Origin: Oscillospiraceae bacterium
GTDB lineage: Bacteria > Bacillota > Clostridia > Oscillospirales > Oscillospiraceae
Direction: 5' to 3'
Assembly (NCBI GenBank): GCA_902787755.1
Contig: CADAHL010000014.1
Span: 1 to 35,153, forward strand
DNA length: 35,153 nucleotides
Shown one piece after another: positions 12,836 to 26,619 of this stretch. Every line of letters starts with the position of its first letter. Position 1 is the first letter of the stretch. A program made the position numbers and the translations under genes. The notes below the pieces were generated by a model, which was not told the DNA's origin, did no database searches, and worked only from the letters and a program-made list of their open reading frames with translations.

Positions 12836-15082
12836 TTGGAGAGCGTATTCATTCGGATCCGCGGCATCGTGCAGGGCGTGGGCTTTCGGCCCTTCATCCA
12901 CCGCCTGGTGCGGGAGACGGGACTGAAGGGGACCATCAAAAATTCCAGCTCCGGCGTGGAGCTGGTCCTGGACGGCGAGCGGGAGGACCTGGAGCGTTTT
13001 CTGCGCCTGCTGCCGGAGCGGGCGCCCCAGCTGGCCGTGATCGAGAGCGTGGAGGCGGAGTACAGCCCGGAGCCCCGGGGCTTTTCGGACTTCCGTATCC
13101 TCTCCAGCAAGACCGAGAACGAGCGCAATACCCTGATCTCTCCGGATATCGGCATCTGCGCGGACTGCCGCCGGGAGCTTCTGGACCCCCGGGACCGGCG
13201 TTACCGCTATCCCTTCATCAACTGCACCAACTGCGGCCCCCGCTTCACCATCATCCGGGACGTGCCCTATGACCGCTGCAGCACCTCCATGGCCCGCTTC
13301 CCCATGTGCCCGGACTGCGACCGGGAGTATCATGATATTGAAAACCGCCGCTACCACGCCCAGCCGGACTGCTGTCCGGTCTGCGGCCCCCGGGTCTTCT
13401 TCCTGGACGCGGAGGGCCGGGAAGTGCCCGGCGACCCCGTCGAGACCGCCCGGGCCCGGCTGAAGGACGGAAAGATCCTGGCGGTGAAGGGCCTGGGCGG
13501 CATGCACCTGGCCTGCCTGGCGGAGGACGAACAGCTGGTGCGGACCCTTCGGCGCCGGAAGGAGCGGGACGAGAAGCCCTTTGCCCTGATGTGCCGGGAT
13601 ACCGCCGCGGCGGAGAAGTACTGCCTCGTCTCCGATGAGGAGCGGGCGGTGCTGGAGAGCTTCCGCAAGCCCATCGTGCTGCTGAAAAAGCGGGACCGGG
13701 CTGCGCTGGGACATCTGAGCGAGAACGGCTATCTGGGCGTGATGCTGCCCTATACCCCGCTGCATGTGCTGCTGCTGGGGGAGGATCTGGACGCGCTGGT
13801 GATGACCAGCGCCAACCTGTCGGACACGCCCATCGTCTATCGAAACCAAGAGGCGCTGGAGAAGCTCCGGGGCATCGCCGACGGTTTCCTGCTCCATGAC
13901 CGCCAGATCCAGACCCGCTGCGACGACTCCCTGTGCTGGGTCCTGGGCGGGAAGGAATATTTCGCCCGCCGTTCCCGGGGCTATGTGCCCTTTCCGGTGC
14001 GCATCGAAGGCAGCCGGGGCGGGATCCTGGCCTGCGGGGCCGAGCAGAAGGCCAGCTTCTGCCTGTCCAAGGGGGACTACGTATTTCCCAGCCAGCACAT
14101 CGGGGATCTGAAAAACGCCGAGACCCTGGCCCATTACGAGCAGCAGATCCGCCACTTTGAGCGGCTGTTCGATATCCGGCCCAAAGTCCTGGCCTGCGAC
14201 CTGCACCCGGACTATCTGTCCACCGAATACGCACAGAATCGGGCGGAGGCGGAGGGCCTGGAGCTGGTCCGGGTCCAGCACCATCACGCCCACATGGCCG
14301 CCTGCATGGCCGACAACGGTCTTGCCGGCCCCTGTCTGGGACTGATCTGGGACGGGGTGGGCTACGGCACCGACGGCCAGGCCTGGGGCGGGGAGCTGCT
14401 GGCAGGGGATTACCGGGGCTTCACACGGCTGGGATCCCTGCGGCCCATCCCGCTCATCGGCGGAGATCGGGCGGTGAAGGAGCTGTCCCGGCTGGCCTTC
14501 GCCCTGCTGTGGGAGAGCGGCTGCGGCGGGGGAGAGATCCCCGGAGCCGAGAGCTATGAAAAAATGCTGTCCCTGGGCTTGAACTGCCCCGGCTCCTCGG
14601 GTATGGGGAGACTCTTCGACGGGGTGGCGGCCATCCTGGGTATCAAGACTCTGGCCAGCTACGAGGGCCAGGGGGCGGTGCTGCTGGAGGCGGCGGCGAA
14701 GGAGACGGACCGGGTGTATCCCGTGGTCCTGGAGGGCGAACCCCTGCGCTTCGACTGGCGACCCATGATCCGGGAGATCGTCCGGGATCGGGACAGGGGC
14801 GAGGACACCGGCGTTCTGGCCGGAGCCTTCCTGAACACCCTGACCGAGATGGCAAGGCGGATGTGCCTGTACGGCGCGGAGAAGACCGGGTATACGGACG
14901 TGGTCCTCTCCGGCGGCAGCTTCCAGAACCAGATCCTGATGGCAAAGCTCCCTGCCGCCCTGGAGAGCGCGGGCCTGCGGGTGTACCGTCATCGGCGGGT
15001 GTCCTGCAACGACGAAGGGCTGAGCCTGGGTCAGCTGATGATCGCCGGAGCGGCTGTGGGCGCGGGAAAAGACAAGAAATAG
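12836..15082 (+). CDS. hypF: [NiFe] hydrogenase maturation carbamoyltransferase HypF
   Basis: HypF makes thiocarbamate on HypE from carbamoyl phosphate, the source of the CN ligands of the [NiFe] site. The 748 residues show the full order: acylphosphatase domain (1-90, RGIVQGVGFRPF), double zinc finger with cysteines 108, 111, 130, 133, 158, 161, 180 and 183 in the exact CX2C-X18-CX2C-X24-CX2C-X18-CX2C spacing, YrdC-like domain (about 200-380), and Kae1-like carbamoyltransferase domain (VQHHHAHMAACMADN). The start is TTG at 12836, preceded by GGGAGGGGAAGG. It is the first gene of the hyp cluster, 97 bp before hypC. Confidence 0.96.
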   Translation: MESVFIRIRGIVQGVGFRPFIHRLVRETGLKGTIKNSSSGVELVLDGEREDLERFLRLLPERAPQLAVIESVEAEYSPEPRGFSDFRILSSKTENERNTLISPDIGICADCRRELLDPRDRRYRYPFINCTNCGPRFTIIRDVPYDRCSTSMARFPMCPDCDREYHDIENRRYHAQPDCCPVCGPRVFFLDAEGREVPGDPVETARARLKDGKILAVKGLGGMHLACLAEDEQLVRTLRRRKERDEKPFALMCRDTAAAEKYCLVSDEERAVLESFRKPIVLLKKRDRAALGHLSENGYLGVMLPYTPLHVLLLGEDLDALVMTSANLSDTPIVYRNQEALEKLRGIADGFLLHDRQIQTRCDDSLCWVLGGKEYFARRSRGYVPFPVRIEGSRGGILACGAEQKASFCLSKGDYVFPSQHIGDLKNAETLAHYEQQIRHFERLFDIRPKVLACDLHPDYLSTEYAQNRAEAEGLELVRVQHHHAHMAACMADNGLAGPCLGLIWDGVGYGTDGQAWGGELLAGDYRGFTRLGSLRPIPLIGGDRAVKELSRLAFALLWESGCGGGEIPGAESYEKMLSLGLNCPGSSGMGRLFDGVAAILGIKTLASYEGQGAVLLEAAAKETDRVYPVVLEGEPLRFDWRPMIREIVRDRDRGEDTGVLAGAFLNTLTEMARRMCLYGAEKTGYTDVVLSGGSFQNQILMAKLPAALESAGLRVYRHRRVSCNDEGLSLGQLMIAGAAVGAGKDKK

Positions 15083-15179: not shown

Positions 15180-15401
15180 ATGTGCCTGGCAGTACCGTTA
15201 AAACTGGTGGAGATCCACGGAAACGACGCCGTGGGGGAGGCTCTGGGGACCCGGCGGAAGATCCGGGTGGATTTTATCCCGGAGCCGAAGCCGGGGGACT
15301 ATGTGATGGTCCACGCGGGCTTCGCCATCGAGCGGCTGCCCGAGCGGCAGGCCCTGGAGGATCTGGAGACCTGGGAGGAGCTGGACGATGCCCTCCGCTG
15401 A
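15180..15401 (+). CDS. hypC: Hydrogenase maturation chaperone HypC
   Basis: The 73-residue protein has the family start MCLAVP, where Cys2 binds the iron of the Fe(CN)2CO intermediate and the large subunit. This fixes the start at 15180; the frame also has a GTG 21 bases upstream, but using it would bury the essential cysteine. GGGGAGG lies 8 bases before the ATG. HypC works with HypD as a scaffold for the iron centre and delivers it to the hydrogenase large subunit. Its last codons overlap the start of hypD by 14 bp, so the two are translationally coupled. Confidence 0.95.
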   Translation: MCLAVPLKLVEIHGNDAVGEALGTRRKIRVDFIPEPKPGDYVMVHAGFAIERLPERQALEDLETWEELDDALR

Positions 15402-16458
15402 AACGCTGATCGCCGCCATCCGTGAGCTGCGGCCGGAGCCGGTGAAGCTGATGGAGGTCTGCGGCACCCATACCCACGCCATCGCCCGCTCCGGGATCAA
15501 ATCGGTGCTGCCGGAGGGCGTGGAGCTGCTCAGCGGGCCGGGCTGCCCGGTCTGCGTCACCCCGACGGAGGTCATCGATCAGATCCTGAGCCTGAGCATG
15601 GAGCCGGGCGTCATCATCGCCAGCTACGGCGATATGCTGCGGGTGCCCGGGAGCAGACCCGGAGACAGCCTCCAGCGCCGCCGGGCCCTGGGCGCCAGGG
15701 TGGAGATCGTCTATTCCCCCATGGACGCCATCGAGATCGCAAAACAGAACCCCGCGAAGGAAGTGGTCTTCCTGGGCGTGGGCTTTGAGACCACCGCCCC
15801 CGGCACGGCCATCGCCGCGCTGACGGCGGCGGAGCAGGGCGTGAGGAATTTTACCGTCTGGTCCCTGCTCAAGCGGGTGGAGCCGGCCCTGCGGGCGCTG
15901 CTCCGATCCGAGAATTTCCAGGTCAAGGGCTTCCTCTGCCCGGGCCATGTGGCCACCATCATCGGTGCCGAGGGCTTCCGGTACCTGCCCGAGGAATACG
16001 GCATGCCGGCGGTAATCTCCGGCTTCGAGCCGGAGGATATCCTGCTGGCGGTGTATCATCTGCTGCGGCAACTGAAGGAGGGCTCGCCCCGGGTGGAGAA
16101 CGACTATCCCCGGGCCGTTTCGGCAAAGGGGAATCTGCTGGCCCAGGGGATCATGGCCCGGTGCCTGGCGCCCCGGACGGATCTGTGGCGGGGCCTGGGA
16201 GAGATCCCGGACAGCGGCCTGGGGCTGCGGCCACAGCTGCGGGAGCAGGACGCCCAGGTGAGATTCGGCCTGGAGCGGCTGCCCGCGCCCAAGCCCACGG
16301 CCTGCCGCTGCGGCGAGGTCATCACCGGACGGCTGAGGCCGGCCGACTGCCCCCTGTTCGGCAAGCGCTGTACCCCGGAGGATCCGGTGGGGCCCTGCAT
16401 GGTCTCCTCGGAGGGAGCCTGCAGCGCGGCGTATCTGTACCGGCCTGCTTCCCCCTAA
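15388..16458 (+). CDS. hypD: Hydrogenase maturation Fe-S protein HypD
   Basis: The 356-residue protein is the scaffold and redox partner for Fe(CN)2CO assembly. Family motifs are present: C25 in MEVCGTHTH, C53 and C56 in GPGCPVC, the GFETTAPGT motif (about 138-146), and a C-terminal cysteine set (CRCGEVITG, DCPLFGKRC, GPCMVSSEGAC) that ligates the [4Fe-4S] cluster. The start overlaps hypC by 14 bp. The last four residues and the stop codon lie inside a palindromic repeat (16448-16464), so the repeat has become the end of the gene. Confidence 0.96.
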   Translation: MPSAETLIAAIRELRPEPVKLMEVCGTHTHAIARSGIKSVLPEGVELLSGPGCPVCVTPTEVIDQILSLSMEPGVIIASYGDMLRVPGSRPGDSLQRRRALGARVEIVYSPMDAIEIAKQNPAKEVVFLGVGFETTAPGTAIAALTAAEQGVRNFTVWSLLKRVEPALRALLRSENFQVKGFLCPGHVATIIGAEGFRYLPEEYGMPAVISGFEPEDILLAVYHLLRQLKEGSPRVENDYPRAVSAKGNLLAQGIMARCLAPRTDLWRGLGEIPDSGLGLRPQLREQDAQVRFGLERLPAPKPTACRCGEVITGRLRPADCPLFGKRCTPEDPVGPCMVSSEGACSAAYLYRPASP

Positions 16459-16541
16459 GGGGAGAATGACCGATAGGGGCTGTCTCGAAACCGACACCCC
16501 TTCAGTCAGCCCGATGGCTGACAGCTCCCCCGGAGGGGGAG
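16448..16541. repeat. Palindromic element between hypD and hypE
   Basis: The 94-bp element is bounded by CTTCCCCCTAAGGGGAG (16448-16464) and CTCCCCCGGAGGGGGAG (16525-16541), with an inner hairpin GTCAGCC-CGAT-GGCTGAC (16505-16522). The end palindromes match those of the element at 1821-1958, but the interior differs. The hypD stop TAA lies in the first palindrome, and the hypE ribosome binding site begins just after the second. Confidence 0.8.
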
Positions 16542-16564
16542 CCAAAAAGGAAGATAGATTGAAA

Positions 16565-17563
16565 ATGGACGAGATCATTACTCTTGACTATGGCAGCGGG
16601 GGGAAGAAGACCTCCCGGCTGATCGAACAGCAGATCCTGCCCGCCCTGGGCAATCCCGCCCTCAGCGCCCTGGGGGATGGAGCCCTGCTCCCCGGCGGGG
16701 ACCGGTTGGTATTCTCCACCGACAGCTTCGTGGTCTCTCCCCTGTTTTTCCCCGGGGGAGACATCGGGAAGCTCTCGGTCTGCGGCACCGTCAACGACAT
16801 CGCCATGTGCGGCGGGGAGCCTAAATATCTCAGCTGCGCTTTCATCCTGGAGGAAGGCTTTCCCATGGAGAACCTGGAGAAGATCATCGCCTCCATGGCC
16901 GGGGCCTGTGAGAAGGCGGGGGTCCAGATCGTCACCGGCGACACCAAGGTGGTGGAGAAGGGTCGGGGCGACGGGCTGTATATCAACACCGCCGGGATCG
17001 GCGTTCTCCGGTATCCCGGGCTGAGTCCCCGGAACCTGCGGCCCGGCGACGCGGTGCTGATCTCCGGCACCATGGGCGACCACGGCGCCACGGTGATGCT
17101 CGCCCGCAGCGGTATGCTGGAGGGGGAGCTGCGCTCCGACTGCGCTTGCCTCAACCACATGGCCCTGGATCTGCTGGACAAGGTCCCCGGGGTCCGGGTG
17201 CTCCGGGATCCCACCCGGGGCGGCGTGGCCACCACCCTCAACGAGTTCGTGGAGGGCTCGGAGCTGGGGATCGAGCTGATAGAACGGGCCCTGCCGGTGC
17301 GCCCGGCGGTCCATGCCGCCTGCGAGATGCTGGGGCTGGATCCGCTGTACTGCGCCAACGAGGGAAAGCTGCTGGCGGTGGTGCCGGAGGAACAGACGGA
17401 GGCGGCCCTCGCGGTGCTGAGAAGCCACGAGGAGGGAGCAAACGCCGTCTGCATCGGTTCTGTCACCGGAGATTTCCCCGGCCGGGTCGTGATGAAAACG
17501 CCTTTGGGCGGCCGAAGGATCCTTCAGAAGCTCACCGGCGCCCAGCTGCCCCGGATCTGCTGA
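16565..17563 (+). CDS. hypE: Hydrogenase maturation protein HypE
   Basis: The 332-residue protein dehydrates the thiocarbamate made by HypF into thiocyanate, giving the CN ligand. It has the PurM/AIR-synthase fold: start MDEIITLDYGSGGKKT, FSTDSFVVSP, GDTKVVEKG and DPTRGGVATTLNE. It ends in PRIC, whose C-terminal cysteine carries the cyanide group. The ATG at 16565 gives the conserved N terminus. A TTG two codons upstream (16559) sits closer to the ribosome binding site AAGGAAG and is a real alternative. It is separated from hypD only by the palindromic element. Confidence 0.95.
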   Translation: MDEIITLDYGSGGKKTSRLIEQQILPALGNPALSALGDGALLPGGDRLVFSTDSFVVSPLFFPGGDIGKLSVCGTVNDIAMCGGEPKYLSCAFILEEGFPMENLEKIIASMAGACEKAGVQIVTGDTKVVEKGRGDGLYINTAGIGVLRYPGLSPRNLRPGDAVLISGTMGDHGATVMLARSGMLEGELRSDCACLNHMALDLLDKVPGVRVLRDPTRGGVATTLNEFVEGSELGIELIERALPVRPAVHAACEMLGLDPLYCANEGKLLAVVPEEQTEAALAVLRSHEEGANAVCIGSVTGDFPGRVVMKTPLGGRRILQKLTGAQLPRIC

Positions 17564-17793: not shown

Positions 17794-17831
17794 TTACCAT
17801 ATTATAAATAATTCACAGAGAGGTGATTTAT

Positions 17832-18230
17832 TTGCAGGAGTACAAACGCATCGATATCCAGAAGGATCAGATCGTACCGATCGCGGAGCGGATGCGGAAA
17901 AACGGCGTGTACCTGGTGATGATCCACGGCTTCCTGAACAAAGAGGGGCTGCTGGACGTCTCCTGGGATTACGCGGTGGATCCGGCCATCGAATCCTACC
18001 ACGTGGTGGGCGAGATGGAGCTTCCCTCCATCGGAGAGATCTACGACACTGCCGCCACCTGGCCCGAGCGGGAGCTGAACGAGCTGTTCGGCGTGACCTT
18101 TGAGGGCCTGGACATGTCCGAACGGCTGTTCCTGCCCGAGGATATGCTGGAGACCCAGGGACGGGGCCATATCATGGTCACACCCCTGAGTGAGCTGGTG
18201 GACAACATGAAGAAGGAGGGCAAGGAATGA
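17832..18230 (+). CDS. Mbh-type hydrogenase NuoC-like subunit (MbhK-like)
   Basis: The 132-residue protein matches the 30-kDa (NuoC/HycE-N) subunit, with the conserved block LPSIGEIYDTAATWPERELNELFGVTFEGL, which packs against the large subunit in the peripheral arm. I chose TTG at 17832 because AGAGAGGTGAT, a strong ribosome binding site, lies about 6 bases before it; the GTG at 17823 falls inside that site. It is the first gene of a run of about 16 genes. Its stop overlaps the large-subunit start (ATGA). Together with the next genes it marks a group 4 membrane-bound hydrogenase. Confidence 0.88.
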   Translation: MQEYKRIDIQKDQIVPIAERMRKNGVYLVMIHGFLNKEGLLDVSWDYAVDPAIESYHVVGEMELPSIGEIYDTAATWPERELNELFGVTFEGLDMSERLFLPEDMLETQGRGHIMVTPLSELVDNMKKEGKE

Positions 18231-19309
18231 GCTACATCGTACCCATCGGGCCCTATCATCCCGCACTGGAGGAGCCGATCCACGCCAAGCTCTACACCGA
18301 GGGCGAGGTCATCAAGGACGCAAAGGTCTTTGTGGGCTATAACCACCGGGGCATCGAAAAGCTGGCCACCGAGCGCAACGCCATCCAGACCCTGGTGCTG
18401 GTGGAGCGCGTGTGCGGCATCTGCTCCCACTCCCACGCCCTGACCTACGCCATGTGCGTGGAGAGCATCAACGGCATCCAGGTCCCCAAGCGGGGCGACT
18501 ATATCCGCGTCATCACCGCAGAGCTGGAGCGGCTCCACTCCCACTTCCTGTGGCTGGGCATCGCCTGCCACATCATCGGCCATGACAGCATGTTCATGCA
18601 CATCTGGGACGAGCGGGAGCTGGTCATGGACATTCTGGAGAAGATGACCGGCAACCGGGTCAACTACGCCATGGTCACCATCGGCGGCTCCCGTCGGGAC
18701 ATCAGCGACGATCTCAGAAGGGAGATCCTGGACGCCTGCGACAAGCTGAAGGCCCCCCTGGATCGGATCACCGAGATCGCCGTCACCGACAAGACCATCG
18801 CCATGCGCACCAAGGGCGTGGGTGTTCTCACCCGGGAAGACGCCCTGCGGATGGGCGCAGTAGGCCCCCATGCCCGCGCCTCCGGCGTGGATATCGACGT
18901 GCGCCGGGACGCCCCCTACTCCGCCTACGGCGACTTTGAGTTCAATGTTCCCGTGGTGGACAGCGGCGACGTGTACGCCCGCGTGGTGGTCCGCGCCCTG
19001 GAGTGCTACGAGAGCATCAAGATCATCCGCCAGGCCCTGGAGAATCTGCCCGAAGGCCCCATCAACCTGGGCAACAAGCTGGTCAAGATCAAAGAGGGCA
19101 TGGCCGTCTGTCGGCACGAGGCCCCCAGAGGCCAGCTCAGCCACATGGTGGTGGGCGACGGCAGCCTGAACAACCACCGGGTCAGCGTCCACGTGCCCAG
19201 CTACAAGAACACCCCCACGGTGCCCTTCATGCTGCGTGGCAACACCGTGGCCGACGCCGGACTCATCATTGCCAGCATCGACCCCTGCTTCAGCTGCCTG
19301 GACCGCTGA
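18227..19309 (+). CDS. Group 4 [NiFe] hydrogenase large subunit (MbhL-like, NuoD homologue)
   Basis: This is the catalytic subunit that holds the NiFe centre. The 360 residues keep both Ni-binding motifs: RVCGICSHSH (C63, C66) and DPCFSC (C354, C357). It is therefore a true hydrogenase, not complex I and not the sulfur reductase relatives that have lost ligands. The N terminus YIVPIGPYHPALEEP is typical of group 4. The chain ends three residues after C357, so there is no C-terminal extension for a maturation protease to remove, and no such protease gene is seen nearby. The ATG overlaps the previous stop, and the stop overlaps the hypA start (TGATG). Confidence 0.95.
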   Translation: MSYIVPIGPYHPALEEPIHAKLYTEGEVIKDAKVFVGYNHRGIEKLATERNAIQTLVLVERVCGICSHSHALTYAMCVESINGIQVPKRGDYIRVITAELERLHSHFLWLGIACHIIGHDSMFMHIWDERELVMDILEKMTGNRVNYAMVTIGGSRRDISDDLRREILDACDKLKAPLDRITEIAVTDKTIAMRTKGVGVLTREDALRMGAVGPHARASGVDIDVRRDAPYSAYGDFEFNVPVVDSGDVYARVVVRALECYESIKIIRQALENLPEGPINLGNKLVKIKEGMAVCRHEAPRGQLSHMVVGDGSLNNHRVSVHVPSYKNTPTVPFMLRGNTVADAGLIIASIDPCFSCLDR

Positions 19310-19695: not shown

Positions 19696-20217
19696 TTGCA
19701 AAAGACGAAATTCCCCGCAGTCGTCGTGACCTTTATCCTCTGCTTTGCCTTCTGGCTGCTGCTGACCTGGTCCTTCGCGGTCCAGGAGCTGATAGCCGGT
19801 GCGGTGGTGAGCCTGGCGGTGGCTCTGTTTACAGCCCGCTTTTTCATCCATGAAAAGGCCTTCTGGCTGTGCAATCCCGTCAAGCTCTTCTCCGGCCTGT
19901 TCTTCTGGGTCTGCGTGTTCCCAGTGGAACTGGTGAAGGCCAACGTGGATATGGCCAGGCGCTGCTTCTCGGGATGCAGGAACATCAATCCCGGCATCGT
20001 GAAGGTGCCTGTGGATCTGAAGAGCGACTACGGCCAGGCGGCTCTGGCCAACGCCATCACCCTGACCCCCGGCACCATCACCATGGAGGTGGCCGAGGAG
20101 GAGGGACAGACCTACTACTACATCCATTGGATCGACGTTACGAAGCCCAGCGGCAAGGAAGCCGGAGACGCCATTAAGGGCACGCTGGAGAAAGGCTTAA
20201 GGAGGGTTTGGGAATGA
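19696..20217 (+). CDS. MrpE/MnhE-like antiporter subunit (MbhA-like)
   Basis: The 173-residue protein has two or three N-terminal membrane helices and a cytosolic domain with the family block DLKSDYGQAALANAITLTPG and EEEGQTYYYIHWIDV. It is the E subunit of Mrp Na+/H+ antiporters, equivalent to MbhA in archaeal membrane-bound hydrogenase. The start is TTG at 19696, with AAGGAGAGG about 8 bases before it. The 45-bp gap after hypA is the widest in this operon. The stop overlaps the next start (ATGA). Confidence 0.9.
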   Translation: MQKTKFPAVVVTFILCFAFWLLLTWSFAVQELIAGAVVSLAVALFTARFFIHEKAFWLCNPVKLFSGLFFWVCVFPVELVKANVDMARRCFSGCRNINPGIVKVPVDLKSDYGQAALANAITLTPGTITMEVAEEEGQTYYYIHWIDVTKPSGKEAGDAIKGTLEKGLRRVWE

Positions 20218-20486
20218 GCGAACTGGTTATCTTCGCGGTGTTTCTGGCCCTGCTGGCGGCACTGCTGATGGTGCGTGTGGCCAAAGGCCCCACCGCCGCC
20301 GACCGTATGGTGGCCGGCGACGCGGCGGATACCCTGATCTGCTGCGCCATGATCCTGTTCTCCCTGTTCAGCGGGAGAGGCATTTATCTGGATATCTCCA
20401 TCGTCTGCGCCGCCTTCGGCTTCATCGACACCATGCTGGTGGGACGCTACCTGGAGAAAGAGAGGGGGAAGAAGGATGGCAATTAG
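20214..20486 (+). CDS. MrpF/MnhF-like antiporter subunit (MbhB-like)
   Basis: The 90-residue protein has three predicted helices and the MrpF pattern RVAKGPTAADRMVAGDA. It corresponds to MbhB of the archaeal complex, where MrpE, F and G make the Na+-translocating side. The ATG at 20214 overlaps the previous stop, with AAGGAGGG about 8 bases before it. The last codons overlap the next gene by 11 bp. Confidence 0.9.
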   Translation: MSELVIFAVFLALLAALLMVRVAKGPTAADRMVAGDAADTLICCAMILFSLFSGRGIYLDISIVCAAFGFIDTMLVGRYLEKERGKKDGN

Positions 20487-20820
20487 GATCATCGTGGACC
20501 TTCTTCTGGTCATCGGCGCCGTGTTTGCCCTGGCGGGCACCATCGGCGTTCTGAAAATGCCCGATACCTACAGCCGGATGCAGGCCAGCACCTGCATCGC
20601 CACCCTGGGCATGCTGGGCGTGGCCCTGGGCGCGCTGCTGTACGCCATCTTTGTGATGCACTCCGCCGGCACCGCCGTCAAGGTGGCCCTGGTGGCGGGT
20701 CTGATCCTGGCGACCAACCCGGTTGGCTCCCACGCCATCGCCAAGGGCGCCTATAAGTCCGGCATCCGCCCCGAGAAGAAGATGGAAGTTGACGATTTGG
20801 GGAGGGATCTGTATGACTAA
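20476..20820 (+). CDS. MrpG/MnhG-like antiporter subunit (MbhC-like)
   Basis: The 114-residue protein has three helices and the MrpG signature AGTIGVLKMPDTYSRMQAST. It is equivalent to MbhC. It overlaps the genes on both sides, consistent with fixed subunit stoichiometry. Confidence 0.9.
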   Translation: MAIRIIVDLLLVIGAVFALAGTIGVLKMPDTYSRMQASTCIATLGMLGVALGALLYAIFVMHSAGTAVKVALVAGLILATNPVGSHAIAKGAYKSGIRPEKKMEVDDLGRDLYD

Positions 20821-21067
20821 TCTGCTTGTGATCCTGAACGTCCTGGTGGTTCTGGGCCTGGTGGTCTCCGCCATCCTGGCGATCCACTTTGAGAACCTGC
20901 TGTCCTCCGTGATCGCCCTGGGCGTCACGGGCCTGTTCGCCGCGGCGGAATTTCTGCTGCTGCACGCCCCGGACGTGGCGATCTCCGAGGCCGCCGTGGG
21001 CGCGGCCCTGACCCCGCTGATCTTCATCGTCACCCTGAGAAAGATCAAAGGAGGGGACGGGAAATGA
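20813..21067 (+). CDS. MbhD-like antiporter subunit (DUF4040)
   Basis: The 84-residue protein has three helices and the conserved block LLHAPDVAISEAAVGAALTP, found in MbhD and in the C-terminal region of MrpA. In the Mrp antiporters this part is fused into MrpA; here, as in Mbh, it is free. The ATG at 20813 has GGGGAGGG before it. It overlaps both neighbours. Confidence 0.9.
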   Translation: MTNLLVILNVLVVLGLVVSAILAIHFENLLSSVIALGVTGLFAAAEFLLLHAPDVAISEAAVGAALTPLIFIVTLRKIKGGDGK

Positions 21068-21426
21068 AAAAATTCCTGACCTGGGTCTGCCTGGGCGTGA
21101 TCCTCTTCGCCTGCCTGTACGGAGCCGTTCAGATGGGCTCCCTTCCCCGGACCTACGAGGGCGGGGAGGCGGCGGTGAGCGTGTACGAGCTCCAGCAGAA
21201 CCCCGAGGCCTATGACGATTCCCACGCCAACGGCGCGGCCGACGCCATCGTCCAGCAGAACCTGGCCGAGACCCACGCGGTCAACGACGTGACCAGCATC
21301 GTCTTCGACTTCCGTGGTTACGATACCATGGGCGAGGCCTTCATTCTCATCACCGCCGTGGCCGGCAGCGCGGTCATCCTGTTTACCAAGAAAGAGAAAA
21401 AGGAGGGCGAGGCTGATGAAAAATGA
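21064..21426 (+). CDS. MbhE-like antiporter subunit
   Basis: The 120-residue protein has one helix at each end around a soluble loop. It contains HAVNDVTSIVFDFRGYDTMG, the hallmark of MbhE and the C terminus of MrpA, with an acidic/aromatic FRGYDT motif. The start overlaps the previous stop (ATGA) and the end overlaps the MrpB-like start. Confidence 0.88.
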   Translation: MKKFLTWVCLGVILFACLYGAVQMGSLPRTYEGGEAAVSVYELQQNPEAYDDSHANGAADAIVQQNLAETHAVNDVTSIVFDFRGYDTMGEAFILITAVAGSAVILFTKKEKKEGEADEK

Positions 21427-21865
21427 GAACATCCGCGTGAAAAACGTAGTCCAGTCCTCCGGCTGCGACTATATGCTCCCCTTCGCCCTGACCTACCTGG
21501 TATACATCATCCTCCACGGACATCTCTCTCCTGGCGGCGGCTTCCAGGGCGGCGTCCTGGTGGTGGGCGTGGTGGTCCTGATCTATCTGGGCCACGGCTA
21601 TGAGACCACGGTGCGCACCCTGAGCGCCAACCTTCTGCACGACACCGAGGGCTTTGCCTCCGTGGTGTACGTGGCCCTGGCCATGATGGGCGTGGCCGTG
21701 GGCGCTCAGTTCTGCCAGAATATCCTGTATCAGCAGGGGAACATCGGCGACCTGTACAGCACCGGCACCATTCTGCTGATGAACGTCACCGTAGGCGTCA
21801 AGGTCTTCACCGGCATCGGCTCCATCGCCCTGCTGATGCTGGGCCTTGTGAACGAGAAAGCGTGA
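21416..21865 (+). CDS. MrpB/MnhB-like antiporter subunit (MbhF-like)
   Basis: The 149-residue protein has four predicted helices and the MrpB motif HGHLSPGGGFQGGV between helices one and two. It is equivalent to MbhF. AAGGAGG lies before the ATG at 21416, which overlaps the end of the MbhE-like gene. Confidence 0.92.
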   Translation: MKNENIRVKNVVQSSGCDYMLPFALTYLVYIILHGHLSPGGGFQGGVLVVGVVVLIYLGHGYETTVRTLSANLLHDTEGFASVVYVALAMMGVAVGAQFCQNILYQQGNIGDLYSTGTILLMNVTVGVKVFTGIGSIALLMLGLVNEKA

Positions 21866-21875
21866 GGTGAGAGAT

Positions 21876-22226
21876 ATGATCGTATTCAACTACATCGCTT
21901 CCTTCTTCCTCATCGTTCTCGGCTTCTACTGCATCGTTGTCAAATACAACCTGGTCAAGACCGTGATCGGCCTGAGCATCGCGGACTACGGCGTGAACCT
22001 GCTGATCATCACCATCGGATTTAACCCGGGCGGCACCGCCCCCATCTTTACCCCCGGTGAGCTGACGCAGGCCAGCTACTTCGTCGATCCCATCCCCCAG
22101 GCCCTGACCCTGACCAGCATCGTCATCGGCGCCTGTGTCACCGCCATGAGCCTGGCTCTGGTCATCAAGCTCAAGGAGTCCTACGGCACCCTTGACACCC
22201 GCGAGATAAGGAGGCTGAGAGGATGA
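21876..22226 (+). CDS. MrpC/MnhC-like antiporter subunit (MbhG-like, NuoK homologue)
   Basis: The 116-residue protein has three helices with family features: IGLSIADYGVNLLI, and FVDPIPQALTLTSIVIGACVTAMSLAL near the C terminus. It is equivalent to MbhG and NuoK. I chose the ATG at 21876, since GAGGTGA lies 5 bases before it; a GTG at 21867 is inside that site. It overlaps the MrpD-like start (ATGA). Confidence 0.9.
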   Translation: MIVFNYIASFFLIVLGFYCIVVKYNLVKTVIGLSIADYGVNLLIITIGFNPGGTAPIFTPGELTQASYFVDPIPQALTLTSIVIGACVTAMSLALVIKLKESYGTLDTREIRRLRG

Positions 22227-24127
22227 GTACTGAATTTGTCCGGCACTTCCCCATCTTTGCCATCATGCTCTACTTCCTGGGCGCATTTCTGATCGTCATG
22301 CTCGGGAAGGTCAGGGCTCTGCGGCACGGCATCGCCTTCGTGGCCACCGCCGGCCCCCTGGCTCTGCTGATCGCTCTGGTGAAGCCCATCATGATCGACG
22401 GCGGCATCATCGCCTACTGGATGGGCAACCGGGTCCCCGCCGGCGGCTATGCCATCGGCATCGCCCTGGAGGTGGACGCCCTGGGCCTGTTCTTCGGCCT
22501 GCTGATCGCCACCGCCGTGTTCGTCTCCTGCCTGTACTCCTTCCGGTACATGGAGCGGGACGACAACGTGCCCCAGTATTACACCCTGTTTCTGATGCTG
22601 GCCGGCGGCGTTATGGGCCTGGTCCTGTCCGGAGACCTGTTCAACATGTTCATCATGGTGGAGATCCTGACCTTCGCCGCGGTGGCCCTGACCGCTTTCC
22701 GCAACCGGGCCAACGGCGCCCTGGAGGCGGCCTTCAAGTACCTGGTGGTGGGCTGCATGGGCTCTACCTGCATCCTGGCGGGCACCATCCTGCTCTATGC
22801 CCAGGCCAGAACCCTGAACTTCGCCCAGCTGAGCGCCCTGATCCCCGGCAACCTGGGCACCTCCACCAAGCTGGCCTTCGCCCTGCTGTTCATCGGCTTC
22901 TCCACCAAGGCCTTTATCGTGCCCTTCCATCCCCTGGCGGCGGACGCCCACGGCGCGGCCCCGGCCAGCATCTCGGTGCTCATCTCCGGTGTGCTGACCA
23001 AGTCCGGCATTTATGGCCTGATCCGTCTGACCTACTTCCTGTTCCAGACCATGGAGCTGGGCACCATGCAGTTCTGGCTGGTGTTCCTGGGCTCGGTGAG
23101 TATGTTCGTGTGCGTCACCATGGCCCTGGCCCAGCATGACTTCAAGAGACTGCTGGCCTTCCACTCCATCTCCCAGATCGGCTATGTGCTCACTGCGGTG
23201 GGCCTGGCTACCGGCTTGGGCGTGTCCGCGGGCCTGTACCACGCCATGAACCACACCCTCTTTAAGGGCCTGCTGTTCCTTGCCGCCGGCGCCGTTCTCC
23301 ATGAGACCGGCACCACCGACCTGAACCGTCTGGGCGGGCTGGCAAAGAAGATGCCCCACACCACGGCGCTGTTCCTCATCGGCGCGGCCTCCATCAGCGG
23401 CATCCCGCCCTTCAACGGCTTTGCCTCCAAGTGGATGATCTACCAGGCCGCCTATCAGAAGGCCGCCGAGACCGGCAACATCGGCTTTGCGCTGGTGACC
23501 ATCATCGCCCTGGTGACCTCCACCCTGACCCTGGCCTCCTTCGTGAAGGTCAGCCAGTCTGTGTTCTTCGGGCGTCTGCCCAAGGAGTACGAGAAGGTTC
23601 AGGAGGTGCCCTTCGGCATGCGCTTTGCCATGGGCATCCTGGCTCTGCTGTGCATCCTGACCGGCCTGTTCCCCGGCCTGGTCACCAAGTATCTGACCGA
23701 GCCTGCCGCCCGGGCTGTGTTCAGCGTGGGCACTTACATCAACAGCATGATGGGCGAGGGTACCATCATCCTGCAGAACCCGGTGGTCAACTTTGCCCAG
23801 GCCGGCGTCTGGTCTCCGATCAACTGGCTGTTCCTGCTGATCATCGCCCTGCTGGCCATCACCATCGTGGCGATCTCCGGCAAGTACGACCGGGTCCGGG
23901 AGATGAACGCCGAGAAGCCCGAGGGCAAGTACGACCTGTTCTTCGGCGGCGAAGAGAGCGTGTACTCCCAGGTGGGCGGCGAAGACCTGTTCTGGGGCTT
24001 CAAGCACAACTGGAGACACTACTTCGGATTCATGCATGAGCTGCACAGCGGCGTGGTCAATGATTACGCCCTGTGGGCGGTGGTCGCGCTGGCCCTGGCC
24101 ATCGTGTACGCCACGATCGTTCTTTAA
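22223..24127 (+). CDS. MrpD-like antiporter subunit with C-terminal extension (MbhH-like)
   Basis: The 634-residue protein is a proton/Na+-translocating subunit related to NuoL/M/N, with about 14 helices plus an extension. Key charged residues of the family are visible: E147 in NMFIMVEILTF, K229 and H243 in the broken-helix region FSTKAFIVPFHPLAADAHG, K260, and K348 in MNHTLFKGLLF. Archaeal MbhH is about 510 residues. Here a tail of over 100 residues (from about 550, including a soluble stretch and a final helix after HSGVVNDYALWAVV) is added. No separate MbhI-like gene is seen, so the tail may be a fused MbhI-like part (inference). AAGGAGG precedes the start. Confidence 0.92.
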   Translation: MSTEFVRHFPIFAIMLYFLGAFLIVMLGKVRALRHGIAFVATAGPLALLIALVKPIMIDGGIIAYWMGNRVPAGGYAIGIALEVDALGLFFGLLIATAVFVSCLYSFRYMERDDNVPQYYTLFLMLAGGVMGLVLSGDLFNMFIMVEILTFAAVALTAFRNRANGALEAAFKYLVVGCMGSTCILAGTILLYAQARTLNFAQLSALIPGNLGTSTKLAFALLFIGFSTKAFIVPFHPLAADAHGAAPASISVLISGVLTKSGIYGLIRLTYFLFQTMELGTMQFWLVFLGSVSMFVCVTMALAQHDFKRLLAFHSISQIGYVLTAVGLATGLGVSAGLYHAMNHTLFKGLLFLAAGAVLHETGTTDLNRLGGLAKKMPHTTALFLIGAASISGIPPFNGFASKWMIYQAAYQKAAETGNIGFALVTIIALVTSTLTLASFVKVSQSVFFGRLPKEYEKVQEVPFGMRFAMGILALLCILTGLFPGLVTKYLTEPAARAVFSVGTYINSMMGEGTIILQNPVVNFAQAGVWSPINWLFLLIIALLAITIVAISGKYDRVREMNAEKPEGKYDLFFGGEESVYSQVGGEDLFWGFKHNWRHYFGFMHELHSGVVNDYALWAVVALALAIVYATIVL

Positions 24128-24139
24128 GGAGGTGGGAAT

Positions 24140-25171
24140 ATGAGTGCTATTCTGCTTGACGCTCTGAGATACCTGGGCTATATCCTCATCTTCCCGGGCT
24201 TCCTGTTCTGCTTCCTCACCGGCCTGCTGCTGTGCGGCATCGACCGGAAGCTGGTGGCCAGAATGCAGAAGCGCGTGGGTCCCCCGATCCTGCAGCCCTT
24301 CTACGATTTCTTCAAGCTCTGCGGCAAGGAGACCATCGTCCCCGCCACCGTCACCTCCAAGACCGTGTTCCTGCTGGCGCCTCTGGTGGGCCTGGCATCC
24401 CTGGTGGTGCTGCAGCTGTTCATCCCCATCTTCTCCTTCCGGGCCTTCGGCGCGGTGGCGGACGTGATCGTCATCCTCTACCTGCTGCTGATCCCGGCGG
24501 TGTCCGTCATCATGGGCGGCTCCGTTACCGGCTCCCCTTACGCCGGCGTGGGCCTGAGCCGTGAGATGGTCACCATTCTGGCCTGCGAGCTGCCCCTGGT
24601 GCTGGTGCTGCTGAGCGTGGCCAAGACCGTGGGCAACGCCCTGGACACCGGCCTCTGCTTCTCCCTGACCCAGATCGCCGCCTTCCAGGCCAAGTACGGC
24701 AGCCTGATCCTGCGTCCCAGCATGATCCCCGCCGCCATCGCCTTCCTGCTCATCATCCCCGGCGAGACCGGCAACCATCCCTTCGACGCCGCTGAGGCCG
24801 AGACCGAGATCTGCGAAGGCATGCTGGCTGAGTACAGCGGCGCTCCCCTGGGCGTATATAAGCTGAACCACGCGGTCAAAATGCTGACGATGACCAGCCT
24901 GTTCATCGCCCTGTTCTTCGGCGGCATCGGCACCGGCATCGAGCAGCTGGCGGCGGCCATGGGCCTGACCGGCGGCGCCGCCGGCATGGTGGTGATCCTG
25001 CTGGACGTGCTGGTCATGTTCCTGCTGTGCGTTCTGACCACCGCGGTGGGCATCTCCTTTGTCCACGCCGTCACCGCGCGGCTGAAGATCGAGCAGATCT
25101 TCAAGTACTACTGGACCGTGGTCTCGGGCCTGGCTCTCATCAGCCTGGTGCTGAGCTGGTACGGTTTCTAA
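24140..25171 (+). CDS. NuoH-like membrane subunit (MbhM-like)
   Basis: The 343-residue protein is the membrane anchor linking the hydrogenase arm to the antiporter arm, homologous to NuoH, HycD and EchB. It has about eight helices, the cytosolic loop RMQKRVGPPILQPFYDFFKL and the acidic HPFDAAEAETEICEGMLAEY segment, both strongly conserved. AAGGAGG lies before the ATG, 12 bp after the MrpD-like gene. Confidence 0.95.
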   Translation: MSAILLDALRYLGYILIFPGFLFCFLTGLLLCGIDRKLVARMQKRVGPPILQPFYDFFKLCGKETIVPATVTSKTVFLLAPLVGLASLVVLQLFIPIFSFRAFGAVADVIVILYLLLIPAVSVIMGGSVTGSPYAGVGLSREMVTILACELPLVLVLLSVAKTVGNALDTGLCFSLTQIAAFQAKYGSLILRPSMIPAAIAFLLIIPGETGNHPFDAAEAETEICEGMLAEYSGAPLGVYKLNHAVKMLTMTSLFIALFFGGIGTGIEQLAAAMGLTGGAAGMVVILLDVLVMFLLCVLTTAVGISFVHAVTARLKIEQIFKYYWTVVSGLALISLVLSWYGF

Positions 25172-25183
25172 GGAGGCGTGTCC

Positions 25184-25627
25184 ATGTTTAAGAAACTGAT
25201 CGAAGAGAGCACCGGGAAATCCCCCTGGCTGTTCCATATCAACGCCGGCTCCTGCAACGGCTGCGATATCGAGCTGGTGAGCGTGCTCACTCCCCGCTAT
25301 GACGCCGAACGTCTGGGCTTCAAGCTGGCCGGCACCCCCCGGCACGCCGATATCGTGGTGGTCACCGGCCCTGTCACCCAGCAGTCCCTGAACCGGGTGC
25401 TGCGGGCCATTGAGCAGGTCCCCGAACCCAGATGCATCGTCACCATGGGCTCCTGCCCCCAGTCCGGCAACGTGTTCCGGGGCAGCTATGCCATCGCCGG
25501 ACCCCTCAGCAAGTACGTCCATGTGGACGTGGACGTGGCCGGCTGCACCCCCAAGCCCGAGGCAGTCATGGACGGTCTGGTGCTGGCCACCAAGATCCTC
25601 CAGGAGAAAAGGAGGGCGATGAAGTAA
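25184..25627 (+). CDS. Group 4 [NiFe] hydrogenase small subunit (MbhJ-like, NuoB homologue)
   Basis: The 147-residue protein binds the single [4Fe-4S] cluster next to the NiFe site, with ligands C24, C27, C91 and C121 (GSCNGCDIE, MGSCPQSG, AGCTPKPEAV). It is the minimal small subunit of group 4 enzymes and of NuoB. I chose the ATG at 25184, 7 bases after AGGAGG; the GTG at 25178 is too close. The stop overlaps the next ATG (TAATG). Confidence 0.95.
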   Translation: MFKKLIEESTGKSPWLFHINAGSCNGCDIELVSVLTPRYDAERLGFKLAGTPRHADIVVVTGPVTQQSLNRVLRAIEQVPEPRCIVTMGSCPQSGNVFRGSYAIAGPLSKYVHVDVDVAGCTPKPEAVMDGLVLATKILQEKRRAMK

Positions 25628-26619
25628 TGGATTTTCCCTTTGTGAAAGAGGCCATCAAGGGCCTGTTCTCCAAGTCCAGCTGCGACATGTATCCCGTCAA
25701 GCCCTCTGAGGCCGCCCCCAACTACCGGGGCCGGATCGTGTTCCATCCGGACAAGTGCATCAACTGCATGATGTGCGAGCGCGTCTGCTCCGGCAACGCC
25801 ATCACCCATACCATCGAGAAGACCGAGGAAGGGGATCTGGTCACCAGGACCTTCTACCTGGGCTCCTGCACCTTCTGCGCTACCTGTATGGACTTCTGCG
25901 GCCACGGCGCCATCGAGTTTACCGGCGATTACCACATGATCGCCACCAAGGAGGAGGACCTGATGGTCTCCGGCACCTTCCTGAAGAAGCCGCCGGTGAA
26001 GAAGGCCCCCGCGCCCAAGCCCGCCGCCGCGCCTGCCGCTCCCAAGGCCGAGGAGGCTCCCAAGGCCGCCTCCGCCGCCGGGACCGTGATTCGGCCCAGA
26101 GACGACGGCAAGCCTGTTCAGGTGCCCTCCAAGTGCGTCTACTGCACCATCTGCGCCAGGAAGTGCCCTGCCGGGACCCTGACGGTGGATCGGGCCGCCA
26201 AGACCTGGACTCTGGACGAGGATACCTGCGTCGGCTGCGGCACCTGTGCCGAGGCCTGTCCCAAGAAGGCCATCCTGATGCCCGGCGACGAGCCCGTGAC
26301 CGTGGAGGCCGCTCCCGCCGCACCCGCGCCCAAGGCGGCTCCTGCGCCGGCCCCCAAGGCGGAGGAGAAGCCCGCCCCCAAGGCGGAGGAAGCTCCCAAG
26401 GCGGAGGAGAAGCCCGCGGAGGCCCCCAAGCCCCGGGATGACGGCAAGCCCGTTCAGGATCCCAGCAAGTGCATCTACTGCACCATCTGTGCCAGAAAGT
26501 GCCCCGCCGGGGCACTGACGGTGGATCGCGCCGCCAAGACCTGGGAGCTGGACGAGGATCTGTGCGTGGCCTGCGGCACCTGCGAGAGCGTCTGCCCCAA
26601 GAAGGCCATCATCATGTGA
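25627..26619 (+). CDS. NuoI-like subunit with two extra ferredoxin modules (MbhN-like polyferredoxin, six predicted [4Fe-4S])
   Basis: The 330-residue protein should take electrons from ferredoxin into the hydrogenase. Residues 1-120 are a normal NuoI/MbhN domain with two clusters (C44, C47, C50, C54; C81, C84, C87, C91). Two more two-cluster modules follow: 157-217 (C170, C173, C176, C180; C201, C204, C207, C211) and 269-329 (C282, C285, C288, C292; C313, C316, C319, C323). They are nearly identical to each other and joined by Pro/Ala/Lys/Glu linkers (about 122-155 and 223-268). Usual MbhN is only about the first part. It is the last hydrogenase subunit gene; ATG overlaps the small-subunit stop. 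The extra modules may act as tethered ferredoxins or an electron relay (inference). Confidence 0.92.
   Translation: MDFPFVKEAIKGLFSKSSCDMYPVKPSEAAPNYRGRIVFHPDKCINCMMCERVCSGNAITHTIEKTEEGDLVTRTFYLGSCTFCATCMDFCGHGAIEFTGDYHMIATKEEDLMVSGTFLKKPPVKKAPAPKPAAAPAAPKAEEAPKAASAAGTVIRPRDDGKPVQVPSKCVYCTICARKCPAGTLTVDRAAKTWTLDEDTCVGCGTCAEACPKKAILMPGDEPVTVEAAPAAPAPKAAPAPAPKAEEKPAPKAEEAPKAEEKPAEAPKPRDDGKPVQDPSKCIYCTICARKCPAGALTVDRAAKTWELDEDLCVACGTCESVCPKKAIIM
26095..26613 (+). repeat. Duplicated ferredoxin module and linker repeats inside the NuoI-like gene
   Basis: Coding segments 26095-26277 and 26431-26613 encode two near-identical modules 112 codons apart. Between them the linker DNA has tandem CCCAAGGCGGAGGA-like units (about 26354-26425). 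This shows duplication within the gene, possibly recent. Confidence 0.85.

Follow-up and report, generated by a model that had tools for sequence, protein, structure and literature searches.

The window, by which we mean the whole stretch of 35,153 nucleotides analysed here from an Oscillospiraceae bacterium, contains a run of genes on the forward strand that starts at hypF and ends at the gene for an MbhN/NuoI-type subunit, the electron-entry subunit of a hydrogenase. In order, the run encodes the maturation proteins HypF (12836..15082) and HypD (15388..16458); an AIRS-family protein that is probably HypE (16466..17563), a name taken from its place beside hypD; a NuoC/MbhK-type 30 kDa subunit (17823..18230); and an MbhL-type [NiFe] large subunit (18227..19309) that has both CxxC pairs and is without a C-terminal extension. 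These are followed by subunits of the MrpE/MbhA type (19696..20217, domain MNHE), the MrpF/MbhB type (20208..20486), the MrpG/MbhC type (20476..20820), the MbhD type (20723..21067), the MbhE type (21064..21426), the MnhB/MbhF type (21314..21865) and the MrpC/MbhG type (21867..22226, domain Oxidored_q2), an MrpD/MbhH-type antiporter-like subunit (22223..24127), an MbhM/NuoH-type membrane subunit (24140..25171, domain NADHdh), an MbhJ/NuoB-type small subunit (25178..25627, domain Oxidored_q6) and the MbhN/NuoI-type subunit itself (25627..26619).

The large subunit contains both [NiFe]-binding motifs, L1 (CGICSHSH) and L2 (DPCFSCLDR), as these are defined in the available text of PMC7886697. Both motifs are found in every one of the 77 loci whose upstream sequence exceeds 7.5 kb, the window included and five of them from a second family of the order (that of genome G082), and in none of the 77 does the large subunit have a residue beyond L2. 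Other hydrogenases need C-terminal maturation cleavage of the large subunit; stopping right at L2, this one would need none. Compared with solved structures, it matched Pyrococcus furiosus MbhL best (6cfw, E 2.9e-85), followed by 7z0s (E 9e-77), 2fug (E 1.5e-62) and 6u8y (E 1.7e-46), the last of which we take to be Mbx, and it is thus nearer Mbh than formate hydrogenlyase, complex I or 6u8y. No NCBIfam model matched the large subunit above its cut-off, the best being NuoD (333.7 against 360 bits). An enzyme without a NiFe site was considered and rejected, given L1, L2 and MbhL as the best structural relative. Mrp-type antiporter subunits are present as well, and by sequence the operon is that of an Mbh-type group 4 [NiFe]-hydrogenase. 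Its placement in HydDB subgroup 4g, suggested by the accessible portions of PMC6776011 and PMC7886697, is a lead.

The entry subunit has 330 residues. Its gene starts with an ATG at 25627 that shares sequence with the stop codon (TAA) of the MbhJ-type gene before it, an overlap of the kind seen in coupled translation. The core, with two [4Fe-4S] motifs, spans residues 1-119 (25627..25983) and matches the NuoI/HycF/MbhN family (6cfw_N, E 3.8e-13). The NuoI model TIGR01971 scored 123.1 bits on the whole protein, above its cut-off of 113.05, and two further models aligned with the core below theirs (NF006221 over residues 3-108, 117.2 against 124 bits; NF009053 over residues 17-118, 147.4 against 204 bits). 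The core is followed by a tail of two dicluster [4Fe-4S] modules on Ala/Pro/Lys/Glu linkers, and Pfam finds Fer4 and dicluster domains across it: an Ala/Pro/Lys-rich linker of 37 residues (25984..26094), module 1 (residues 157-217; 26095..26277), an Ala/Pro/Lys/Glu-rich linker of 51 residues (26278..26430) and module 2 (residues 269-330; 26431..26616), each module including a PRDDGKP lead and containing two CX2CX2CX3CP motifs, as a soluble 2[4Fe-4S] ferredoxin does. Polyferredoxin models scored the protein below their cut-offs (FwdF, 89.7 against 375 bits; VhuB, 76.8 against 600 bits).

Motifs, Pfam and TIGR01971 together bear out the preliminary description of this protein as a 330-residue NuoI/MbhN-like subunit whose two-cluster core carries extra modules on linkers. 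Its count of 24 motif cysteines was also correct: the protein has 25 Cys, of which 24 lie in six CX2CX2CX3C motifs, the remaining one being C19. The modules, which had been called nearly identical, are indeed similar, but at 82% over 51 residues, for protein and DNA alike (blastn: 84.6% over 175 bases), that wording was too strong, and of the linkers, given as 35-45 residues, the first falls within that range and the second exceeds it. An Mbh-type entry subunit would be expected to have two clusters only and this one has six cluster motifs; the remaining complex is of Mbh type, and our claim is therefore of an Mbh-type enzyme plus an added tail.

An AlphaFold2 monomer model of the whole protein (mean pLDDT 72, pTM 0.36) assigns the modules a pLDDT of about 90 and most linker residues values below 50, as for disordered arms, in keeping with the flexible arms proposed earlier; with its low pTM the model yields no reliable relative placement of the modules. 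Foldseek hits of the model were NuoI/HycF chains and the polyferredoxin FwdF, which told us nothing more about docking.

All 102 genomes of the genus were searched at a match threshold of E 1e-20, and the match regions were read in 92 besides the window. The subunit is encoded in 93 of the 102 (window included); seven of the nine genomes without a match at this threshold are less than 87% complete. A tail is present in 89 of the 93, intact with one module in 66, with two in 11 and with three in 8, and damaged or split in four: three modules in pieces with a broken frame (G370), two modules with an internal deletion in the second (G367), one module behind an in-frame stop (G002), and at least two modules split over two contigs (G006). 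The contig ends before any module in G395 and G022. Complete subunits with zero modules are encoded by G001 (L209, 134 residues) and G347 (L194, 151 residues), so some species can do without the tail. The G347 subunit keeps a linker-like Pro/Ala end; it looks like a case of secondary module loss and would serve as a natural control. Modules were counted with a regular expression that demands all eight Cys, so that full Cys retention holds partly by construction; in a looser anchor scan of 95 genus loci, used as a check, the only incomplete modules were those of G367, G370 (broken frame) and G006 (cut by a contig end).

The doubt raised in the preliminary description, that the duplication might be an assembly error, can largely be set aside: the tail is present in many independent genomes, and copies lie at the same position in the genomes of independent species, which makes such an error very unlikely. 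Two genomes have a second subunit copy on another contig (G335, L147/L195; G353, L185/L186), which may be assembly contamination. In a sub-group of one-module species (L205, L207, L204, L203, L206, L210, L202) an insertion, VADYYHAPSFEEGE or alike, lies in the core just before a linker that is longer than usual. Across the loci (G370 and G367 excluded from linker statistics) the linker preceding module 1 spans 23 to 142 residues, and all linkers pooled have one composition (A 35%, P 21%, K 16%, E 10%). The records of several relatives name the rumen, omasum, caecum or faeces of herbivores.

Beyond the genus, searches at the levels of order, class and phylum scored only the 7-10 top candidates of each genome and may have overlooked tailed proteins that match weakly or are distant; apart from the genus and the G082 family, each group was represented by a sample of its genomes. 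In the order sample, 13 of 295 genomes matched on this basis, the window included. Four genomes of the window's own family encode an Mbh-type core that ends in an Ala/Lys repeat tail (KAKAEAAKAAKAA) with zero modules (G060, L064; G230, L065; G161, L066; G296, L069). Of the nine genomes in the family of G082, a second lineage, five encode an Mbh-type subunit bearing two or three modules; in one of these (G170) the third module is cut at the contig end.

In a further family (f23, that of G328) the modules occur on EchF. An EchF-plus-tail alignment matched 22 of 150 genomes there, of which nine have a tailed EchF and seven a tail-less one that ends at a stop codon; of the rest, two matched with a different type of subunit and four, judged by match rows only, with other ferredoxin-like proteins. 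The tailed proteins have one module in six cases, two in G1218 (L250) and four in G1260 (L248), where EchF reaches 414 residues and ten cluster motifs; in G1226 the protein lies in pieces over two contigs and its module number is uncertain. Other tailed loci include L070 (G328), L247, L253, L254, L255 and L259. Beside EchF, the operons of G1260 and G1218 encode antiporter-type, NuoH-, NuoB-, NuoC- and NuoD-type subunits, an Ech-like set. At another locus (L252, in G1280), a NuoC/EchD-type protein encoded upstream of the tailed EchF (1168-1809; Complex1_30kDa over residues 12-114) has a C-terminal dicluster module at about residues 137-189, which shows that EchF is not the only Ech subunit able to carry one.

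Wider samples gave no further tails among the best 7-10 candidates per genome. The class sample (391 genomes) contained an Mbh-type core in three genomes of another family, with frames of 139-150 residues, two motifs and a stop, and no tail. In the phylum sample (398 genomes) the EchF-tail alignment matched 55 genomes besides that of the window, none with a second match, to the tail, in the same frame; the 29 of these that were read all had two motifs and ended at a stop, and the other 26 were judged by match rows. The Mbh alignment gave no match in the phylum search that reached a module outside the window's genome. The question posed at the outset, in which taxa such repeats occur, thus has an answer: the tail characterises almost the entire genus and is also present in two further lineages of the order.

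By sequence identity the Mbh tail modules are closest to the Ech tails. Outside Cys, the 11 Mbh tail modules compared have a mean identity of 0.50 with Ech tails, 0.37 with EchF cores, 0.28 with the soluble ferredoxin of the genome and 0.22 with MbhN cores, and for all 11 the nearest sequence other than an Mbh tail was an Ech tail module, 60-69% identical outside Cys. Support for a clade of Mbh and Ech tails is modest: 0.92 in FastTree, and 90/71 in IQ-TREE once ten long-branch sequences were removed (six MbhN cores, two delta-like proteins and two RnfB pieces). In the full IQ-TREE analysis, long branches kept, that clade was absent; any group large enough to take in every tail there contained, in addition, MbhN cores, the two delta-like proteins, one of the RnfB pieces and a single EchF core. 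The modules may have originated from EchF, which is a lead and not a result because the module sequences have only about 50 residues. Origin from the enzyme's own MbhN core is not favoured, given the identity of 0.22 to those cores against 0.50 to Ech tails.

The modules also differ in charge from the soluble ferredoxin of the window's genome. The net charge of 128 modules, a rough indicator of docking, has a mean of +1.1 (from -2 to +4; +2 and 0 for the window modules), against -10 for the one soluble ferredoxin compared. Near-neutral or basic dicluster domains we take to be receivers of acidic ferredoxin. Near-neutral modules beside a ferredoxin of such charge, taken together with this receiver role, lead us to favour relay arms over built-in ferredoxins. 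Taking the enzyme to be a membrane-bound, ion-translocating [NiFe]-hydrogenase, we think, with slightly better than even confidence, that the tail consists of tethered electron-receiving relay arms that feed the MbhN core and would work, by analogy, like E2 lipoyl arms. Once its clusters are assembled, a module would be loaded with electrons by acidic ferredoxin in its reduced state or, without that intermediary, by an enzyme that reduces ferredoxin. It would then swing on its Ala/Pro/Lys/Glu linker and deliver the electrons to the MbhN core at its entry cluster, and thence to the NiFe site. Several arms would benefit the enzyme as extra capture points, and could keep as many as four electrons close to an active site that uses two per H2.

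The preliminary description had proposed that the modules act as built-in ferredoxins, and in its strongest form this would mean that they replace the soluble protein, with pyruvate:ferredoxin oxidoreductase or a like enzyme reducing them directly, without a diffusing ferredoxin. Such a role would suit dicluster motifs that keep all eight Cys, as well as a local concentration that a polymer estimate with assumed scaling constants puts between 0.4 mM (linker of 142 residues) and 4 mM (linker of 37). We nevertheless consider replacement unlikely, since a separate soluble 2[4Fe-4S] ferredoxin exists in this genome and passes the NCBIfam FdxA_fam cut-off of 65 bits at 80.8, whereas the window modules fall short of it (43.9 and 44.6); since the modules are not acidic; and since their identity outside Cys is lower to that ferredoxin than to the Ech tails. 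The same evidence, with tails of EchF as the nearest relatives, does not support the view that the modules are simply soluble ferredoxins built into the subunit. Loss of the soluble ferredoxin as the cause of the tail was rejected as well, the genome encoding one.

The window's genome also encodes RnfA and RnfB, both over their NCBIfam cut-offs, and two small oxidoreductase-delta-like proteins (net charge +1 and +4) that fall below every cut-off. A tail that mainly recruits partners of this kind (Rnf, oxidoreductases) into a loose membrane electron-exchange assembly could make use of all of them, and linkers so long and variable would fit several partners; the sequence, however, points to no partner, and we find this reading improbable. 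Smaller still is the chance we allow that the tail is an electron buffer only, keeping one-electron arrivals from limiting two-electron H2 chemistry: four extra cluster motifs in the window and six in three-module species would serve that end, but one-module and no-module species exist.

The history of module number was followed in a species tree of 78 loci built from the cores of MbhL, M, J and N, that of the G370 N subunit left out. One module is the usual state of the genus. Multi-module loci lie mostly in one clade, which includes the window, and occur again in a clade of G026, G031 and G017; a single-module locus (G362) lies inside the multi-module clade. In a tree of the modules, from which three of every four single-module rows were omitted, there are both positional copies common to species and recent duplications: module 1 of the window is nearest to module 1 of G364 and module 2 to module 2 of the same genome, and the two modules of G019 are identical in DNA. 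Fully concerted evolution of the modules was therefore rejected as a general account, both patterns being seen. Among 14 chosen species groups dN/dS was 0.227 for the core, 0.219 for the first module and 0.149 for the last, so that in these groups purifying selection acts on the modules much as it does on the core. Neutral drift of module number by repeat slippage, with copies beyond the first functionless, would accommodate close relatives that differ in copy number, the identical modules of G019, the deletion within the second module of G367 and the single module of G362, but is very improbable in view of the constraint on first and last modules (dN/dS 0.15-0.22), the positional copies shared across species and the rarity of incomplete modules, which the looser scan of 95 genus loci found only in G367, G370 and G006.

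What emerges is a known kind of enzyme with a new tail, one that is real, conserved in the genus, constrained and variable in number, and whose role we infer. Energy-converting hydrogenases convert the electrons of ferredoxin to H2 and an ion gradient, and the natural series of zero to three modules on otherwise alike Mbh-type enzymes, and up to four on Ech, allows the limits of electron delivery to be tested. The available text of PMC6776011, on rumen data, calls group 4g [NiFe]-hydrogenases functionally unresolved and lists groups 4g, 1b and 1d as having the highest hydrogenase expression by RNA/DNA ratio. Related hydrogenases with zero to four tethered modules suggest a swinging-arm feed of electrons into H2 production. 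A wider form of this hypothesis, which we advance tentatively and think more probably wrong than right, is that gut clostridia evolved a modular feed in which one dicluster family, on one to four disordered arms, serves both Mbh and Ech as a tethered pool, with arm number controlling the rate. If true, it would be a redox counterpart of the E2 lipoyl arms, and would link ferredoxin-reducing enzymes to H2 formation via a tethered rather than a free ferredoxin pool.

Among known systems, P. furiosus Mbh (6cfw) is the best match of the large subunit and has the same kinds of Mrp-type, MbhD/E, M, J and N subunits as the window; its MbhN chain has 139 residues, to which the window subunit adds four cluster motifs on the tail. 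The two differ in gene order. According to the sections available of PMC11228991, P. furiosus MbhN and MbhJ together hold three clusters, and a small soluble ferredoxin docks to MbhN to supply electrons. The tailed EchF proteins have the nearest relatives of the window's modules, in copy numbers of 1, 2 or 4, on a core that is EchF and not MbhN and, in G1260 and G1218, within an Ech-like gene set. The literature matches listed for hydrogenases, ferredoxin tails, Rnf and lipoyl domains, in which subscription journals are thinly covered, include no tandem-ferredoxin tail on MbhN or EchF, in agreement with the earlier remark that no described Mbh with such a tail was known.

Other systems share single features with the tail. 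RnfB, as far as the consulted text of PMC12174285 describes it, is likewise an entry subunit with a variable cluster number, its C-terminal cytoplasmic domain holding two to seven [4Fe-4S] clusters and accepting electrons from ferredoxin, and it has a flexibly tethered small domain; it is a different protein with a membrane helix, and that text describes no Ala/Pro linker arrays. The polyferredoxins FwdF, MvhB, EhaP/EhaQ and EhbK have tandem dicluster domains that serve hydrogenases or dehydrogenases (PMC3087415, in the passages available), yet they are separate subunits, whereas the window modules are fused to the MbhN entry subunit on long linkers. Group B [FeFe]-hydrogenase has a single fused dicluster ferredoxin-like domain on a short flexible linker (PMC12578642, in part), and CarE a fused dicluster domain proposed to be an adaptor (PMC5861303, in part); unlike the window tail, these belong to other enzyme classes and have one domain each. 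E2 enzymes have one to three lipoyl domains depending on species, and the linkers of Escherichia coli E2p are Ala-Pro rich and 20-30 residues long (from the accessible text of PMC6270654); these arms resemble the tail in mechanism only, without homology, their cargo being acyl groups on lipoyl-lysine. Within the portions of these sources available, the nearest ideas in print are therefore RnfB, the polyferredoxins encoded with Eha and Ehb, the single fused domains of group B [FeFe]-hydrogenase and of CarE and, where mechanism alone is compared, the lipoyl arms.
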